From positions 1 to 64,000 of the forward strand of contig JAFGBM010000001.1 of assembly GCA_016933155.1 (NCBI GenBank): a stretch of DNA of 64,000 bases, read 5' to 3'. A model generated the notes under the pieces. The model saw nothing but the letters and a program-made list of their open reading frames with translations, was not told the DNA's origin and made no database searches. Both the position numbers and the translations under genes were made by a program. The stretch comes from Demequinaceae bacterium. GTDB taxonomy: Bacteria; Actinomycetota; Actinomycetes; Actinomycetales; Demequinaceae. Shown here one piece after another: positions 55,923 through 64,000 of the stretch. Each line of letters starts with the position of its first letter. The stretch's first letter is position 1.

Positions 55923-57170
55923 TCATTCCCCCACGGGGTCGCCCGCAAGCAGCCGCGCAGTGAATCGGGCGACATCGTCGCGGAGGCCCGGGTGGGCGCC
56001 TGGGGCAGGAGTCTCTATCCCGACGAATGCCGCGATCCTCGCCAGGGCGTCGGCCACCACCCCGTCGGCCCCCTTCACCCCCCAGGACTCGCCCTCGGCC
56101 GCTATCGCCTCCGCCGTGATGCGCGAGTGGTCGGACTCTCCCTCGATGGACATGGCGAGGCCACGATGGGCGACGTGGTGGCGGAGCGGCACCATGTCGT
56201 AGGCCGGAGCCAGGGTGGGGCTCGGGAGTCGGCCCGACGCGGGCGGCGCGTGGAGGACGGACAGGTTCTTGGCGTGCATGTCGAGGTTGCCGACGGCGAC
56301 GGCCAGAGTCACCTGGGTGAGGAGGCGCCGACGGGATTCGTTATCTCCGTATGCGCGGAAGACGTCCGCGACCCTGAGGAGGCTGACGGGGCTGCCCTGG
56401 CCCTCGTACTTCATGGCGCCGTACGCCCCGAGGGCCTGGTTCATGTCCTCCTGATGGAGGCGCCCCCCGGGGATGGCGGGGTCGCGGTCGTACCGCTCGA
56501 GGACGAGGGCGCGCACCCCGTCGAAAGACTCGATACGGGTCTCGAAGGCGGAGAGCCCGAGGGCGCGGGCCGCCCTCGCCCCGTACTCCTCGTCGAGGAT
56601 CAGGCCGGGCCTCTCCTCCGGGGACACCTTGACGATGTGGGTGGAGGGGGCACCGTCGTGGACCTGATGCCAGATGTCGCCCACCCGGGCGAGGACGATC
56701 TTGTCCTGAACGCCCCCGAGGGAGGTCCGGCCGGTCAGCCGGTCATTGCCGAGGGGCGCGAGCGAAGCGTCCCGCAGCATCGCGCCGACGGCGGCCTCGG
56801 AGAGCGGCTCGGTTCGGGGTGTTCGGGGCTCCCCTGGGGCTTCGGGATCGTAGATCTGCAGGGCCCCGGCGAGGTCTCGGCCGTAGCGGCGGAGCATCCC
56901 GACGATGTCGTTGGGCTCGAGCCCCGCCTGGCTGGCGAGCCGGGTCAGGAGCCGGCCCTCCGGAAGGAGCTCGGAGAAGAAGTTGCGCCGCCGACCCGCG
57001 TTCCTCGGGGTGGGTCGGGCCTCAAGGGGGATGGACTCCGAGACGATGGTGCTCCCCAGCCCGAAGGCCTCGATCGCCTCGGACGCGGCGACGAAGTCGA
57101 AGGAACGCCAGTCGGTTCCCACGAGGTGGCCCACCGTCACTCCATAGAGCTCGACGACCAGGTCGGCCAC
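55923..57170 (-). CDS. hipA: HipA-family serine/threonine kinase toxin
   Basis: 415 residues. N-terminal subdomain (about 1-110) and HipA kinase core. Landmarks: SLGGVQDKIVLARV (P-loop-like gate), STHIVKVSPEERPGL (the ATP lysine), LHQEDMNQALGAYGAMKY, VAVGNLDMHAKNLSVLH (catalytic D and N), APAYDMVPLRHH (metal-binding D). HipA phosphorylates a glutamyl-tRNA synthetase in E. coli and causes dormancy. The HipB-like antitoxin gene lies three bases upstream. Complete and probably active. Confidence 0.92.
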   Translation of the reverse strand: MADLVVELYGVTVGHLVGTDWRSFDFVAASEAIEAFGLGSTIVSESIPLEARPTPRNAGRRRNFFSELLPEGRLLTRLASQAGLEPNDIVGMLRRYGRDLAGALQIYDPEAPGEPRTPRTEPLSEAAVGAMLRDASLAPLGNDRLTGRTSLGGVQDKIVLARVGDIWHQVHDGAPSTHIVKVSPEERPGLILDEEYGARAARALGLSAFETRIESFDGVRALVLERYDRDPAIPGGRLHQEDMNQALGAYGAMKYEGQGSPVSLLRVADVFRAYGDNESRRRLLTQVTLAVAVGNLDMHAKNLSVLHAPPASGRLPSPTLAPAYDMVPLRHHVAHRGLAMSIEGESDHSRITAEAIAAEGESWGVKGADGVVADALARIAAFVGIETPAPGAHPGLRDDVARFTARLLAGDPVGE

Positions 57171-57173
57171 GAC

Positions 57174-57446
57174 CTACTCCCCCGGTCCAGACGACGGAGT
57201 GGGGCCGGGGTCATCGATCTCGATGCTGTCGATTTCGACCATGAGATGAGCCTGGACGGCCCGGAGCACCTCGAAGAGCCGATCGGTGAAGATCCCCGGC
57301 TTCCCCTTTTCCAGCTCCCACAGCCACCGCTGGCTGATCCCCAACTGACTGGCGAGGTCCCTCTGGCTCATGCCCCTGAGTGCCCTCGCCTGTTGGATCG
57401 CCCGCCCGAGGGCCTGAGGCGTCTCGATGCTTCCCTTGATCCCCAT
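57174..57446 (-). CDS. hipB: HipB-like HTH antitoxin
   Basis: 90 residues from ATG 57446, with AGGAGGT at six bases. Xre-type helix-turn-helix: LGRAIQQARALRGMSQRDLASQLGISQRWLWELE. The tail is acidic and flexible. It should bind HipA and repress the operon at the inverted pair TGACTAC/GTAGTCA around the promoter (57458-57504). The frame is open to 57536 but the extra 30 residues lack a start signal. Confidence 0.9.
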   Translation of the reverse strand: MGIKGSIETPQALGRAIQQARALRGMSQRDLASQLGISQRWLWELEKGKPGIFTDRLFEVLRAVQAHLMVEIDSIEIDDPGPTPSSGPGE

Positions 57447-57457
57447 GAACAACCTCC

Positions 57458-57504
57458 TGACTACATTTTTACAATCATTCCCCTTGCTGTCAATATCGTA
57501 GTCA
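57458..57504 (-). promoter_or_regulatory. hipBA promoter flanked by inverted operator sites
   Basis: On the minus strand TTGACA (57493-57488), 16-base spacer, TAAAAA (57471-57466). Inverted copies TGACTAC (57458-57464) and GTAGTCA (57498-57504) bracket both boxes, as expected for HipB sites that block the promoter. Confidence 0.7.
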
Positions 57505-57651
57505 TTTCGGTGAGAGGGGCCCGGGAACCCTCGCATAGGACCTTAGGCACCGGTCCCCGGCCGAGCCCGCAGTTAGCATGAAACTACCCATGCGTGACGC
57601 GTGGCAGGTGGATCACCCCAAGCCCCGTGGCAACTCGAAGGAGAACGACGG

Positions 57652-58842
57652 ATGACCGTACGCACGCCCATGACCCTGGCCTCGATCGAGGCCGATGCGG
57701 GACTCAAGGCCGCCCTCGCGCTCGACGCCCCCGGGGTCGTCGCCGAGGTGAAGGATTCCGGCCTCAAGGGACGAGGCGGGGCGGGATTCCCGACCGGCCT
57801 CAAGTGGGAGTTGGCCGCGGCCGCCCCATCGTCCGACGGAAAACGATACGTCATCTGCAATGCCGACGAGGGCGAACCGGGCACCTTCAAGGATCGCCTC
57901 ATCCTCTCCGAGTGGCCCGACCTCCTCTTCGAGGGCATGACCATCGCCGGATACGCCATCGGAGCTCAGGAGGGCATCGTCTACCTCCGCCACGAGTACG
58001 CCTACATGATCGAGGCGCTTGAAGGCCGCCTGGAGCGCCGCCGCAAGGCCGGCCTCCTCGGAGACGGCATCCTCGGCAAGAAGGACGTCAGCTTCGACAT
58101 CCACATCCACCTCGGATCGGGCGCCTACGTCTGCGGTGAAGAGACCGCACTCATCGAGAGCCTTGAGGGCAAGCGCGGAGAACCCCGCAACCGTCCCCCG
58201 TTCCCCGTCGTCTCCGGCCTGTTCGGCAAGCCCACGACGGTCAACAACGTCGAGACCTTCGCCTGGATCGCCGCCATCCTCGGCAAGGGCGCGAAGTGGT
58301 TCTCCGCCATCGGGACCGAGCGGTCCAAGGGGCCGAAACTGCTCTCCATCTCCGGCGACGTCGAGCGTCCCGGCGTCTACGAGTTCCCGTTCGGCGTGAC
58401 GATCGCCGAACTCCTCAAGGCGACCGGCGGCGAGAAGGCCAAGGCCGTCATCGTCGGCGGTGCCTCGGGACACTGCCTGCCGCCGTCGGACTTCTCCCGG
58501 GCGATCGCCTTCGAGGACGTCGCCACGGGCGGTGCCGTCATCGTCATCGGCCCGAACCGTGACCTCCTCGACGTCGTCGAGAACATCATGGAGTTCTTCG
58601 TCGACGAGAGCTGCGGCCAGTGCATCCCCTGCCGCATCGGAAACGTCAAGATCCTCGAGGGCATCAAGGCCCTCAAGAAGGGCGAATGCTCCTCCGAGCA
58701 GCTCCTGGACCTGACCGGCCTCGGGGACACCATGCAGGTTTCTTCGAAGTGCGGGCTCGGACAATCCAGCCCCAACGTCTTCCTGTCCATGGTCAGGAAT
58801 TTCGGACATGAAATCCTTGACCGCGCCCCGGCGTCGGCCTGA
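57652..58842 (+). CDS. [FeFe] hydrogenase NADH-binding flavoprotein subunit (NuoF-like)
   Basis: 396 residues from ATG 57652 with AAGGAG upstream. NuoF/HydB-type subunit: FMN-binding LKGRGGAGFPTGLKW, NADH-site CNADEGEPGTFKDR, GSGAYVCGEETALIESLEG, and the [4Fe-4S] set ESCGQCIPCRIGN with a last Cys in SSKCGLGQ. It passes electrons between NAD(H) and the hydrogenase. Unlike longer HydB proteins, it lacks an N-terminal thioredoxin-like and C-terminal ferredoxin part. First gene of the operon; hydA starts 24 bases later. Confidence 0.93.
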   Translation: MTVRTPMTLASIEADAGLKAALALDAPGVVAEVKDSGLKGRGGAGFPTGLKWELAAAAPSSDGKRYVICNADEGEPGTFKDRLILSEWPDLLFEGMTIAGYAIGAQEGIVYLRHEYAYMIEALEGRLERRRKAGLLGDGILGKKDVSFDIHIHLGSGAYVCGEETALIESLEGKRGEPRNRPPFPVVSGLFGKPTTVNNVETFAWIAAILGKGAKWFSAIGTERSKGPKLLSISGDVERPGVYEFPFGVTIAELLKATGGEKAKAVIVGGASGHCLPPSDFSRAIAFEDVATGGAVIVIGPNRDLLDVVENIMEFFVDESCGQCIPCRIGNVKILEGIKALKKGECSSEQLLDLTGLGDTMQVSSKCGLGQSSPNVFLSMVRNFGHEILDRAPASA

Positions 58843-58866
58843 CGGAAACAAAAGGAGAACTGAGCG

Positions 58867-60756
58867 ATGACTACCGAGGTTTCCACCGAGACCGTGACGG
58901 TGACCGTTGACGACATCGAGGTCACGGTCCCCAAGGGCACGAGCATCCTCGAGGCCGCGCGCAAAGCCGGCATCGACATCCCGACCCTGTGCCACCATCC
59001 CGACCTGCCCGACGCCGGCGTCTGCCGCATGTGCGTCGTCGAGGTGGACGGACAGCGCAACCTCCAGGCGAGCTGCGCCTTCCCCCTGACGGACAAGGTC
59101 GAGATCACGACCCACAGCCCCCGCATCCACCAGGCCCGGCGTGACGTCCTCGACCTCATGCTTTCCGAGCACTACGGCAGCTGCCGGACCTGCGTCCGCA
59201 ACGGCAACTGCGAGCTGCAGGACCTGGCGGCGCAGTACGGCTGCGACTATGTCCGGTTCGGCCACAAGACCAAGGCGACCTCCTGCATCGACAACCTCGG
59301 TCCCTCGATCGTCCGGGACATGGACAAGTGCATCCAGTGCCTTCGCTGTGTTCGTACCTGCGCCGAGCTCCAGGGGATCGGCGCCCTCGGCGTCCTCGGC
59401 CGGGGATCCACGACCGAGGTCGGGACCTATCTCGACATCGCGCTGTCTGAGGTCAACTGCATCAACTGCGGCCAGTGCATCAACCGCTGCCCCACTGGAG
59501 CCCTCTCCGCCGTCGACAACACGGACCTGGTCTGGGCAGCCATCAAGGACCCGACCAAGCACGTCGTCATCCAGACCGCCCCGGCGCCCCGTGCAGGCAT
59601 CGGCGAGGAGTTCGGCCTGAAGCCGGGCACCCCGATGACGTGGCAGATGAACACCGCGCTCCGCCGGGTCGGCTTCGACAAGGTCTTCGACACCAACTTC
59701 TCGGCCGACCTCACCATCATCGAAGAAGGCACCGAGCTCCTGCTCCGCCTGTACAAGAACCTCGTCCTGGGAGACACCTCCCAGCCGGTGCCGCAGTTCA
59801 CCTCGTGCAGCCCGGGCTGGATCAAGTACATCGAACACCAGTACCCCGAATACCTCCCGAACCTGTCGACGTGCAAGAGCCCCCAGCAGATGTTCGGCGC
59901 ACTCATCAAGACCTTCTACGCCAAGAAGAACAACATCGACCCCAAGGACATCGTGTCGGTTTCGCTCATGCCCTGCACGGCCAAGAAGTTCGAGACCACG
60001 CGGCCGGAGATGACGGACAGCGGCTTCGCCGACGTCGACTTCGCCCTCACCTCCCGTGAGATCGCCAAGATGATCAAGGAATACGGCCTCGACCTTCCGG
60101 ACATGCCGAAGAGCGACTTCGACGACCCGTTCGGAACCGCCTCGGGATCCGGCGTGATCTTCGGAGCCACCGGCGGTGTCATGGAGGCCGCCCTCCGCAC
60201 CGTCGTCGAACTCGTCCTGGGTATCAAGGTCGAGGACCTCTTCGAGCACGCCGACATCGTTCCCGTCCGCGGATTCGAGGGCGTCCGGTACGTCGAGATC
60301 CAGATCCCCGACAAGGTCGGACCGGTCCCCGCGATCCTGGCCGACCTCGTCCCCGACTGGAACTGGCTCAAGGGCGCGACGCTGAAGGTTGCCGTCGCGC
60401 ACGGCACGGCGAACGCCGAGAAGGTCATGGAGGACATCAAGGCCGGCGGCAAGTTCAGCGAATGCCACTTCATCGAGTTCATGGCCTGCCCCGGGGGATG
60501 CCTTGGAGGCGGCGGCCAGCCGATCCCGACGAGCGAGGCCATCCGCCAGGCCCGCGCCAACGCCATCTACGGCGAGGACGCCGCCTACGGCGAGGAGGGT
60601 CGTGCCCGCAAGAGCCACGAGAACCCGCCCGTCATGAAGCTGTACGAGGAATTCCTCACGGACGGGCCGTGCGGCCACATCAGCCACCACCTGCTCCACA
60701 CCGAATACACGAACCGGGGCACGTTCATCGCCACGAAGACCAAGAAGGAGTCCTGA
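58867..60756 (+). CDS. hydA: [FeFe] hydrogenase catalytic subunit
   Basis: 629 residues. Domains: [2Fe-2S] ferredoxin (about 1-80; CHHPDLPDAGVCRMC...C), His-ligated [4Fe-4S] (HYGSCRTCVRNGNC, near 101), two [4Fe-4S] ferredoxin motifs (CIQCLRCVRTC near 155, CINCGQCINRC near 198), then the H-cluster domain with TSCSPGW near 313, MPCTAKKFE near 367 and MACPGGCLGGGGQP near 538, and the short small-subunit-like tail. Makes or consumes H2. The first H-cluster motif has S where many enzymes have a second C (TSCCPGW). No maturation genes (hydE, hydF, hydG) are in the window. The stop overlaps the next start by one base. Confidence 0.96.
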   Translation: MTTEVSTETVTVTVDDIEVTVPKGTSILEAARKAGIDIPTLCHHPDLPDAGVCRMCVVEVDGQRNLQASCAFPLTDKVEITTHSPRIHQARRDVLDLMLSEHYGSCRTCVRNGNCELQDLAAQYGCDYVRFGHKTKATSCIDNLGPSIVRDMDKCIQCLRCVRTCAELQGIGALGVLGRGSTTEVGTYLDIALSEVNCINCGQCINRCPTGALSAVDNTDLVWAAIKDPTKHVVIQTAPAPRAGIGEEFGLKPGTPMTWQMNTALRRVGFDKVFDTNFSADLTIIEEGTELLLRLYKNLVLGDTSQPVPQFTSCSPGWIKYIEHQYPEYLPNLSTCKSPQQMFGALIKTFYAKKNNIDPKDIVSVSLMPCTAKKFETTRPEMTDSGFADVDFALTSREIAKMIKEYGLDLPDMPKSDFDDPFGTASGSGVIFGATGGVMEAALRTVVELVLGIKVEDLFEHADIVPVRGFEGVRYVEIQIPDKVGPVPAILADLVPDWNWLKGATLKVAVAHGTANAEKVMEDIKAGGKFSECHFIEFMACPGGCLGGGGQPIPTSEAIRQARANAIYGEDAAYGEEGRARKSHENPPVMKLYEEFLTDGPCGHISHHLLHTEYTNRGTFIATKTKKES

Positions 60757-61265
60757 TGCTGACCGTTCCGCCGCAGCTGGCCCCGGAATTCGAGACCCTG
60801 AGCAAGGAGATCGACGCACTCCTCAAGACCCACGGCCGGGGGCGAGACGCCCTCATCCCCGTGCTTCAGGACCTCAGGGAGCGGCACAACGAGATCAGCG
60901 ACCTGGCCATGCAGATCGTCGGAGACCGGCTTCGCGTTCCCGCCGTCGAGGTCCAGGGCGTCGCGACCTTCTACTCGTTCCTCGGGACGGACGCCACCGG
61001 CCAGCACGTGATTCACCTGTGCCGCACCCTCAGTTGCGACATGGCCGGGGCGAAATCGATTGCCAAGACGCTGTCCAAGGAACTCGGCATCAAGTTCGGA
61101 GAGACCACCGAGGACGGTCAGTTCACCCTCAAGTGGTCCAACTGCATCGGGATGTGCGACCAGGCCCCCGCGGCCCTCGTCAACCGCGAGGCCGTCGGCA
61201 ATCTCACCCCCGAACGGGTCAAGGAGATCATCGCCGGGCTCCGGGCGAAGGACGCCAAGAAGTAG
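60756..61265 (+). CDS. [FeFe] hydrogenase NuoE-like subunit
   Basis: 169 residues from ATG 60756, overlapping the hydA stop (TGATG). Thioredoxin-like [2Fe-2S] subunit with cysteines CRTLSC near 88 and CIGMC near 129, and VPAVEVQGVATFYSFL typical of NuoE. It links the flavin subunit and hydrogenase, as in trimeric HydABC/HndACD complexes. Gene order flavoprotein - catalytic - NuoE differs from the common NuoE-first order. Confidence 0.94.
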   Translation: MLTVPPQLAPEFETLSKEIDALLKTHGRGRDALIPVLQDLRERHNEISDLAMQIVGDRLRVPAVEVQGVATFYSFLGTDATGQHVIHLCRTLSCDMAGAKSIAKTLSKELGIKFGETTEDGQFTLKWSNCIGMCDQAPAALVNREAVGNLTPERVKEIIAGLRAKDAKK

Positions 61266-61289: not shown

Positions 61290-62219
61290 TCAGACAGCGA
61301 CGGAACCGGCAGACCGGAGAGCCCGGACGAGCGCCCAGGCATAGGCGACGAATCCCGCGGGCATGAGGAGAAGGTAGACCGGGATGTTGGTCTCGACCTC
61401 GGCCCCTGCCCCGTAGGCAACGGTGTAGACGACGGTGGCGAGGGCGGGTATCGCCAGGAACCAGACGAGTTGCCTGACCTTGGTCGGGAAGGCGATCGTG
61501 AGCGGCTCCGTCGGGGGAAGTTCGGGCCCGGTCCGCGCCAAGGCCCTCCAGGTCAGGTACGCGAGCGGCGGCAGGATCACCAACGCCAGCCAGGTGACGA
61601 ATATCCCCGTCACGAGGTACTGGAAGGCGACGAGGCCGAAAACGACCCGGGTTCCGACGACGCTCGGCTCAAAGCCCCTCCTCATGAGTCGAGCGGCGAC
61701 GAGGTAGGCGGGGATGACCAGCACGGTCGCCGCGAACGAGTATGTGGCGAAGGACGCAACCGTCACCTGATGGTCCTCCTCGACCCACCAGTTGATCGCC
61801 CACACCCCGTAGGCGAGGCCTCCGGCGACCCCTATCCACACGAATGGCCGTGTCTGGCCCCGTCGGACGGCCCGATCGACCAACCACCACCCCACCATCA
61901 CCGAGATCAACGCATGCCAGGCCAGAGGGGTGAAGGAGATCGAGAGGGGCACCGCTTCATACATCTTCGTGACGACGATCCCCTCGATGATGAACCCATA
62001 GGCGGCACCCACCAGAAAGACCTGCCACCAGGAGCGGGTCTGAAAGCGCCAGCCGAGCCACAGAACCACGTAGGTGGCGATGGAATAGGTGAACCACACC
62101 CACAGCCATTCGGGCAGCGAATCCTCGGGTCTGACTCGAGCCCAGAACAGCAACTCCGAGAAATAGAAGAAGACGTACCCCATGCTCAGGGCGAGCCCGG
62201 CAGACCTCAGGAACCTCAC
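61290..62219 (-). CDS. Polytopic membrane protein, unknown function
   Basis: 309 residues, eight to nine hydrophobic helices rich in Trp, Tyr and Phe (YVFFYFSELLFW, WLWVWFTYSIATYVVLWLGW, VWAINWWVEEDH). No charged motif or known domain stands out. Convergent with the hydrogenase operon (24 bases between stops), and the TusA-like gene on the same strand ends 11 bases upstream of its start, so it may be the last gene of that operon. Confidence 0.78.
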   Translation of the reverse strand: MRFLRSAGLALSMGYVFFYFSELLFWARVRPEDSLPEWLWVWFTYSIATYVVLWLGWRFQTRSWWQVFLVGAAYGFIIEGIVVTKMYEAVPLSISFTPLAWHALISVMVGWWLVDRAVRRGQTRPFVWIGVAGGLAYGVWAINWWVEEDHQVTVASFATYSFAATVLVIPAYLVAARLMRRGFEPSVVGTRVVFGLVAFQYLVTGIFVTWLALVILPPLAYLTWRALARTGPELPPTEPLTIAFPTKVRQLVWFLAIPALATVVYTVAYGAGAEVETNIPVYLLLMPAGFVAYAWALVRALRSAGSVAV

Positions 62220-62230
62220 GGCTTTCCTCC

Positions 62231-62539
62231 TCAGCGAGTCATCCCCTTCCTCGATGCTAGCGAACTCTCCACAGCGTGCTGGGTCTTTCTGCTCCCCTTG
62301 AGGACCTCAAGACGGACGAGGTAGCCCCCCTCCGGAGCCGGCTCGATCGGGTCAATGGCGTGTCCAGCCCACTCGGCCCATGCAGGGAAATCGATCGCGG
62401 CGGAGTCATCATCGGCACGCACGACCACCGTGGTTCCACGCGAAAGGTAGCGCGTCGACTTCGCGACATGAATGAAGGTGGTCGGGTTCCCCAAGCCCCG
62501 TGCATCGACTTCGACGATGTCGGAAGCACTGCTTGTCAC
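62231..62539 (-). CDS. TusA-like protein lacking the sulfur-carrier cysteine
   Basis: 102 residues. TusA (SirA) fold: VDARGLGNPTTFIHVAKS, VVVRADDDSAAIDFPAWAEWAGHAI and a long polar C-terminus. In TusA the motif is DARGLxCPxP, where C carries a persulfide; here N18 replaces that cysteine and T20 or T21 the second proline. It cannot carry sulfur in the known manner. The start overlaps the upstream cysteine-desulfurase-like gene by ATGA. Fused desulfurase/TusA proteins are known in actinobacteria, so an association of the two products is likely. Confidence 0.82.
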   Translation of the reverse strand: MTSSASDIVEVDARGLGNPTTFIHVAKSTRYLSRGTTVVVRADDDSAAIDFPAWAEWAGHAIDPIEPAPEGGYLVRLEVLKGSRKTQHAVESSLASRKGMTR

Positions 62540-63705
62540 TGCGGAGCCCCCAAACTCAAGCGAACGGAATGGACGGCGCCGATGAGGGCCGCACCGAGAG
62601 CATCTATGTCCTCATCGACAATCCCAGGATGGAGGCCCAGTCGGATTGCTCCGTGCGTCATCGCACCCATCGCCGTGAGGGCAGGGCACGGACCCGATGG
62701 ATGCCGCCCGCAAGTACACCCGCAGCCAACGGCGAAGCCGCATGCATCGAGGGCACGAGCAACGGCAACGGCGTCGGCGTAGACGAAGGACACAGCCGTC
62801 ACGTGGGGCATCTGATCCAGGGGATGTCCGAGTAGAACGGAGTTCGGAATGGACTGAATCGCCCTCCGAAGCCGCGCTGTCGCTGCCGCGACCTTCCTGG
62901 TGGCCTCTTGTCTGCTCGCGTGGCTTTTCCTCAATGCAGCCGCCGCCGCTAATGCCGCCGGGATGCCGACGCTTCCAGTCGCCCATGGCGTCCCGCTCGG
63001 CCAACAGGGAAGCCAGCGCACATTGGGTCGAAGAGCGAGAACGCCGAAACCCCCGGGACCTCCCCAACTCGTCGGATCGGCGAGAAGGGCATCCCACTCC
63101 CGCGGCGGGTCAAGGGGCCCGATGCTCGCGGTCGCGTCAACAACGAGCGGAACCTTCGAGACAGTCGCGGCCGCATGGGCGTCCTCGACGGGCTGGATCG
63201 TCCCCACCTCGCGATTGGCGTGCTGGAGCGCGATGAAAGCCACGTCCACAACCGTCACCGCTCGAATGAGCAGGTCAAGCCTGACCCGCCCATGCTCGTC
63301 GACCGGGATCGAATCGAGGGCGTCCGGCCCTACATGATGGACGGCATCGGTAATCATCGCGGACTCGACAGCCGAGGCGACAACCCGAAACCGGCCGGAC
63401 CGGGCGGCGGCAAGTCCCATGATGAGCCGCTCGGCGGAAACAGCGGGCGTGGGAGCGAAATGGGTGTGAGCCGGGTGAGCGACGAGCAACGCCGCCATCT
63501 CTTCCCGGACGTCGTCAAGCATCTCCTTTGCCCGTCGTCCTTCCGCATGCAGACGAGCCGGATCGGCCCAACCATCGTCAAGCGCGGCAAGGTAGACGTC
63601 CCTCGCCTCCCGGTCGACGGGCATCACACCCACCGCATCTGCGTAGACCCGAGTAGCAGGCATGGTCGAAAGGGTATGTCCGGAAGGTTGCGATTCGGTT
63701 ACCAC
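62536..63705 (-). CDS. Cysteine-desulfurase-like protein without PLP-binding residues
   Basis: 389 residues with the fold pattern of class V aminotransferases/NifS: DGWADPARLHAEGRRAKEML, HANREVGTIQPVED, VVDATASIG, SWGGPGGFGVLAL, IRLGLHPGIVDEDID. Active-site residues are missing: the lysine that binds PLP and the preceding His are T212-S213, and the ring-stacking His is S115. Only D190 remains. The active-site loop has four cysteines CGCTCGRHPSGPC (328, 330, 332, 340), a metal- or disulfide-like cluster. The start is GTG 63705, three bases from the arsC stop; an ATG at 63663 fits the homologous start equally well. Confidence 0.85.
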   Translation of the reverse strand: MVTESQPSGHTLSTMPATRVYADAVGVMPVDREARDVYLAALDDGWADPARLHAEGRRAKEMLDDVREEMAALLVAHPAHTHFAPTPAVSAERLIMGLAAARSGRFRVVASAVESAMITDAVHHVGPDALDSIPVDEHGRVRLDLLIRAVTVVDVAFIALQHANREVGTIQPVEDAHAAATVSKVPLVVDATASIGPLDPPREWDALLADPTSWGGPGGFGVLALRPNVRWLPCWPSGTPWATGSVGIPAALAAAAALRKSHASRQEATRKVAAATARLRRAIQSIPNSVLLGHPLDQMPHVTAVSFVYADAVAVARALDACGFAVGCGCTCGRHPSGPCPALTAMGAMTHGAIRLGLHPGIVDEDIDALGAALIGAVHSVRLSLGAPQ

Positions 63706-63708
63706 GAC

Positions 63709-64000
63709 CTAGGTCGGCTCTCCCTCGAGCCGTTGAAGAAGCGCCGCGGTGTCCTCAAGCAGCCAATCCCGGATCTCCCGAAGGGAATCTAGGTCACCGT
63801 CCACGGGCTCAGGAGCTTCAGCATCGATGTACTCCCTCCCTGGAAGCCTGGGAATGGCCTCGATACATCCGAAGGCAACGACGGTTGTGGCCGCCTGAAG
63901 CATCTCGCGGGCCAGGGGCTTGGGAAACTCCCGGTTGACATCGACCCCGACCTCGCGCAACACAGGGCGCACCCCCGTGTGCAACGTCAAGGCGGGATCG
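63709..64000 (-). CDS. arsC: Arsenate reductase / low-molecular-weight phosphatase family protein (partial, C-terminal part)
   Basis: The right window edge cuts the N-terminus, with the catalytic P-loop. The remaining 97 codons read DPALTLHTGVRPVLREVGV, REFPKPLAREMLQAATTVVAFGC, IEAIPRLPGREYIDAEAP and EIRDWLLEDTAALL, matching the C-terminal half of LMW-phosphatase-type arsenate reductases (the VxxGC motif and PGxxYxDW/A region). These enzymes reduce arsenate using thiols. First gene visible of the arsC - desulfurase-like - TusA-like run. The actual function may be a tyrosine phosphatase. Confidence 0.75.
   Translation of the reverse strand, partial: DPALTLHTGVRPVLREVGVDVNREFPKPLAREMLQAATTVVAFGCIEAIPRLPGREYIDAEAPEPVDGDLDSLREIRDWLLEDTAALLQRLEGEPT

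Follow-up and report, generated by a model that had tools for sequence, protein, structure and literature searches.

Introduction

What is being retained when linked proteins from families of sulfur and arsenate enzymes have each lost the residues of their usual chemistry? This question is raised by three adjoining genes in a Demequinaceae MAG with a genome of 1.89 Mb. The stretch referred to here as the window covers the initial 64 kb of a 77-kb contig from this genome and ends in an operon encoding an ArsC-like protein, a cysteine desulfurase-like (CD-like) protein and a TusA-like protein. As follows from their sequences, none of the three would be capable of the chemistry typical of its family. 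The analysis gives an even chance to the explanation that the three genes are a conserved, co-translated non-catalytic set, likely forming one complex, which is predicted to serve as a metal or Fe-S scaffold. The evidence for this explanation, and for its rivals, is set out below from the layout of the operon to its history among related bacteria and archaea.

Operon layout and genome setting

The three genes are tightly packed (Table 1). The ArsC-like gene ends 3 nt before the start of the CD-like gene, and the stop of the latter overlaps the start of the TusA-like gene by 4 nt. The ArsC-like gene runs beyond the edge of the window and was read whole from the contig (L003:3709-4389), while the CD-like and TusA-like open frames were re-read exactly where the initial annotation had placed them. 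No IscU/SufU gene adjoins the operon; a SufU-like gene is located on another contig (C9). Intact SufS- and IscS-like enzymes are encoded elsewhere in the genome.

Table 1. Positions in the window of the three genes and of two sites in the CD-like protein
Feature	Position	Strand	Remarks
ArsC-like gene	63709..64000 (C-terminal part; whole gene to contig position 64389)	-	226 aa
CD-like (desulfurase-like, IscS/NifS fold) gene	62536..63705	-	389 aa, no PLP lysine
TusA-like gene	62231..62539	-	102 aa, N18 at sulfur-carrier Cys position
Cys loop CGCTCGRHPSGPC (C328-C340) of CD-like protein	62686..62724	-	large alignment
T212-S213 codons of CD-like protein (= His-Lys site in active desulfurases)	63067..63072	-	alignment

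A second species of the same genus, Chersky.27_6 (G001, L040/L202), carries the ArsC-like, CD-like and TusA-like genes in identical order and with the same losses of key residues. These two MAGs are the only ones from which the disarmed three-gene operon is known. In the window, a membrane protein is encoded 11 nt after the TusA-like gene (61290-62219); it matches no Pfam family above cut-off and has no counterpart at the Chersky locus.

Further genes near the operon deserve mention. Positions 57601-61265 hold NuoF-like, [FeFe] hydrogenase and NuoE-like genes in an arrangement like that of a trimeric hydrogenase. A [FeFe] hydrogenase is present in both genomes of the genus, and six Demequina have one in a longer open frame. 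A link between the operon and the hydrogenase was considered and dropped, as the Chersky hydrogenase precedes a gyrB-like gene on a different contig from the operon. Because the two are unlinked in Chersky, the closeness of the window operon to Fe-S enzymes may be chance. At 55923-57536, an apparent HipA-type kinase (415 aa) and a helix-turn-helix partner (120 aa) were recognized, both judged by eye only.

Residue losses in the three proteins

The CD-like protein matches the Aminotran_5 family (E 6e-17; 62.2 bits against a cut-off of 21.5) and, in profile searches, the NifS and IscS models, at scores below the NCBIfam equivalog cut-offs (122 versus 531 bits for NifS, 64 versus 643 for IscS). 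Among PDB sequences, A. fulgidus IscS2 matches it best (E 2e-33). An AF2 model (pLDDT 89.7, pTM 0.89), in which confidence is lower around the Cys loop, reaches TM scores of 0.87-0.90 to IscS structures, among them those of A. fulgidus IscS and of E. coli IscS in complex with TusA, and thus predicts a class V aminotransferase/IscS fold. In the large alignment, T212-S213 occupies the columns of E. coli IscS H205-K206 and S115 that of H104, so that the Schiff-base lysine, the histidine preceding it and the histidine stacking on the PLP ring are all absent, as initially proposed. A 5-residue gap that a small automatic alignment had placed at the PLP site proved false, the larger alignment giving a plain substitution. 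The Asp contacting the PLP ring nitrogen is kept.

The mobile loop of the CD-like protein contains the cysteines C328, C330, C332 and C340. All four had been described as gains; three of them are, and C332 is the active-site Cys retained from the family. C330, C332 and C340 are common to the window and Chersky proteins and form a CxCGx6CP motif, from which C328 stands apart as it is not shared. This loop was found in no other collected sequence beyond these two.

The TusA-like protein clears the Pfam TusA cut-off (33.8 versus 28.6 bits), and its Chersky orthologue is not detected by the same model. The alignment supports the earlier proposal that N18 sits in the column of the sulfur-carrier Cys, the CPxP cysteine being lost, and the Chersky protein is likewise without a Cys at that site (GLDATAL). 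Asp50, which corresponds to Asp51 of E. coli TusA, is retained, as are Trp54 and Gly35.

The leader of the operon had been identified as arsC. Its ArsC-like character stands, with the Phosphatase-like_N and LMWPc domains both above cut-off; the degenerate state of the protein had been missed. Compared with the P-loop pattern Cx5[R/K]S, the sequence CQGNDILSP keeps the cysteine (Cys101) and has Leu in place of Arg/Lys, a change found in both species. The relay motif is GCIEAIP (GCLDQIP in Chersky) instead of GCGDACP; one of its two cysteines, Cys175, is kept and the following relay Cys is lost. By comparison, 18 ArsC homologues from relatives keep R or K in the P-loop and both relay cysteines. 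When the whole class was searched with the ArsC-like protein for a wider spread of the three-gene operon, the best match (E 1e-48) was no closer than ordinary ArsC similarity.

Selection on the operon

Between the window and Chersky, identity amounts to 70% for the ArsC-like, 61% for the CD-like and 48% for the TusA-like protein, with most changes at third codon positions. The corresponding dN/dS ratios are 0.12, 0.25 and 0.31; they are rough since dS exceeds 1, and all lie far below 1. All three genes are thereby shown to be under purifying selection. The TusA-like protein, the fastest evolving, could be the least constrained of the three. The view that the operon does not reflect simple decay, put forward in the initial annotation, is borne out because the operon, with these losses and low dN/dS, recurs in a second species, which also shares C330, C332 and C340.

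History of the losses

Loss of the PLP lysine extends well beyond this genus. The Lys is absent in all inspected members of seven Actinomycetales families, namely that of Demequina and six further ones. At the His-Lys site, every inspected Demequina CD-like protein carries Ala-Asp or a comparable pair, with Asp in most, and across the families the pairs found are diverse (AD, RS, RA, QS, GD, GG and TS, among others). Of the 76 distinct Lys-less sequences, 75 extend to the mobile loop and all of these retain its Cys; the ring-nitrogen Asp is present in 76 out of 76. His-Lys is retained in Nocardioides and Frankia homologues, and an Actinocrinis homologue with Arg-Lys is fused to TusA. The tree groups the Lys-less sequences from Actinomycetales into a single clade (98/95), and the Lys-bearing Nocardioides sequences branch outside it; the simplest reading is therefore a single Lys loss at the base of that clade. 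Homologues that keep Lys and Cys had been named as a sign that this copy might be a recent pseudogene; homologues with His-Lys exist, yet the loss of the Lys is old and clade-wide. The window and Chersky CD-like proteins are sisters (100/100) on a separate long branch.

The losses are layered. The Lys disappeared order-wide first, and the TusA Cys later, in the window genus only, which does not bear out the idea that the two were lost jointly. It is likewise only in this genus that the CxCGx6CP loop was gained and an ArsC-like gene acquired; TusA proteins adjoining CD-like proteins outside it keep their Cys. A gene order of CD-(TusA)-erpA-nadA is found in most genomes of the Lys-less clade, and the three-gene operon of Chersky abuts erpA. 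The TusA gene next door is missing at 16 of the 33 Demequina loci. Moreover, seven near-complete Demequina genomes have the CD-like gene and no TusA anywhere, which argues that the function of the CD-like protein is TusA-independent. The window genome itself has a second Lys-less copy at an erpA-nadA locus (C1:3283-4482; L004), with no TusA beside it, Cys-Asp at the His-Lys site and a normal GSGSAC loop.

Lys-less homologues with a retained loop Cys also occur outside Actinomycetales, in Candidatus Pyrohabitans (His-Arg), another archaeal MAG (His-His) and Dehalococcoidia (His-Thr). With neighbours named by motif and reading, Pyrohabitans (L110:5989-8998) has a row of Lys-less CD, TusA, Lys-bearing CD and IscU-like genes, and in Dehalococcoidia the Lys-less CD gene is preceded by TusA and DsrE-like genes or followed by an IscU-like gene (L115:5133-6990, L117:5600-7853). 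The Lys loss next to TusA in Pyrohabitans is apparently independent. A contig labelled Melainabacteria (L083:4249-5268) carries an actinobacteria-like CD-TusA pair with His-Leu at the PLP site, and its label may be a binning error.

Proposed function and rival explanations

The non-catalytic nature of the proposed scaffold is strongly indicated by the residues that the three sequences lack. According to this explanation, the CD-like dimer would no longer draw sulfur from cysteine and would instead provide a scaffold for docking, in which the Cys loop could hold an Fe-S cluster or a metal ion in the manner of the Lys-less IscS of A. fulgidus. The TusA-like protein would no longer carry sulfur but would serve as a docking subunit, and the ArsC-like subunit would contribute its two remaining cysteines. 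Co-translation and shared loss suggest that the three proteins act together. A metal or Fe-S cluster as ligand of the Cys loop is inferred by analogy with the A. fulgidus protein, with the erpA-nadA neighbourhood and the conservation of the extra cysteines as further grounds. The likeliest setting would be Fe-S maturation or thiol/Fe-S sensing, although Zn, Cu and As(III) would fit the three-Cys loop equally well. A fuller version, with somewhat less than an even chance, holds that enzymes of three unrelated families were disarmed jointly to give one non-catalytic complex with a new Cys-x-Cys-Gly-x6-Cys metal or Fe-S site, built on an order-wide lineage that was already PLP-less.

The main rival is a sulfur relay, in which the loop Cys of the CD-like protein would take persulfide sulfur from an intact SufS/IscS-like enzyme and pass it on, the extra loop cysteines replacing the lost TusA thiol in the window genus. 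Conservation of the loop Cys across the Lys-less clade, often next to a Cys-bearing TusA, is what such a relay would need, and the Pyrohabitans gene row and the intact SufS encoded in the window genome also agree with it. The natural acceptor thiol, however, is the very TusA Cys that is gone in this genus, and the many Demequina loci and genomes without TusA count against it further; the relay is judged rather unlikely. A cryptic enzyme, using the old pockets differently with, for instance, non-covalently bound PLP or another cofactor, would agree with the persistence of the ring-nitrogen Asp in every Lys-less sequence and would suit the predicted intact fold. Such an activity is very improbable, given that the Lys site varies freely and that neither a replacement lysine nor a new conserved catalytic set was seen in the Lys-less sequences.

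As(III) favours three thiolates, a preference that suits a loop with three conserved cysteines. Together with the ArsC-like gene at the head of the operon, this raises the idea of an arsenic or thiol sensor, with As(III) bound by the loop and its binding signalled by the ArsC-like protein. This idea is nevertheless improbable because the ArsC-like P-loop is broken in both species, with its oxyanion-binding Arg/Lys and a relay Cys lost, and because a search for an ACR3 arsenite exporter found none in the window or Chersky genome; additionally, the operon contains no ArsR-type or DNA-binding gene. The role in arsenic chemistry suggested initially is weak for the same reasons, and arsenic detoxification was dropped on the absence of ACR3 from the genomes tested. 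Least probable of all is slow decay, in which a once-useful set is being lost and persists by chance only. Several catalytic residues lost from each protein, long branches in the tree and the poor conservation of the TusA-like protein would all be expected from it, but the frames are open in two species with dN/dS of 0.12-0.31, the genes are tightly packed and the gained cysteines are common to both species.

If the fuller version of the scaffold explanation is true, the operon would represent a new type of scaffold or sensor for Fe-S clusters or metals, built wholly from former sulfur and arsenate enzymes. In any case, it offers a natural example of three linked proteins whose chemistry has been lost and which are retained by selection. 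For the wider clade, the genes are likely annotated as cysteine desulfurases on account of their fold, while the usual Schiff base with PLP is out of reach for every inspected member. Should the loop Cys prove to ligate a cluster, the arrangement seen in A. fulgidus would turn out to be widely used in a major order of bacteria, an idea that can be tested in culturable Demequina.

Comparison with known systems

Among the papers searched, none dealt with Lys-less desulfurases in actinobacteria, and none described a Lys-less clade that spans an order and is paired with TusA. Lys-less IscS is already known from A. fulgidus and Methanosarcina; the disarmed three-gene operon turned up in just two genomes. 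The direct relatives of the window pair are the Actinomycetales CD-TusA pairs beside erpA-nadA, in which the PLP lysine is likewise gone. Unlike the window operon, these keep the GSGSAC loop and the TusA Cys and have no ArsC-like gene. The two-domain architecture of the ArsC-like protein is that of actinobacterial ArsC with an N-terminal helical domain (PDB 3t38), from which it differs in lacking the Arg of the P-loop and one of the relay cysteines. The E. coli IscS-TusA complex (PDB 3lvj; PMC2854127) shares both folds and the conserved TusA Asp51 with the window pair, but its catalytic residues are intact in both partners, whereas the window pair is without the PLP lysine and the TusA Cys.

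The A. fulgidus IscS (IscS2; PDB 4eb5, 4hvk) resembles the window CD-like protein in its IscS fold, its replaced PLP lysine (Ser in the window) and its retained loop Cys. In the archaeal protein, the Lys is replaced by Asp, desulfurase activity is absent and the loop Cys ligates a [2Fe-2S] cluster on IscU; a Lys-less IscS has been noted in Methanosarcina as well (PMC7585200). The two differ in that the partner of A. fulgidus IscS is IscU, whereas the window protein has TusA-like and ArsC-like neighbours and extra cysteines in its loop.
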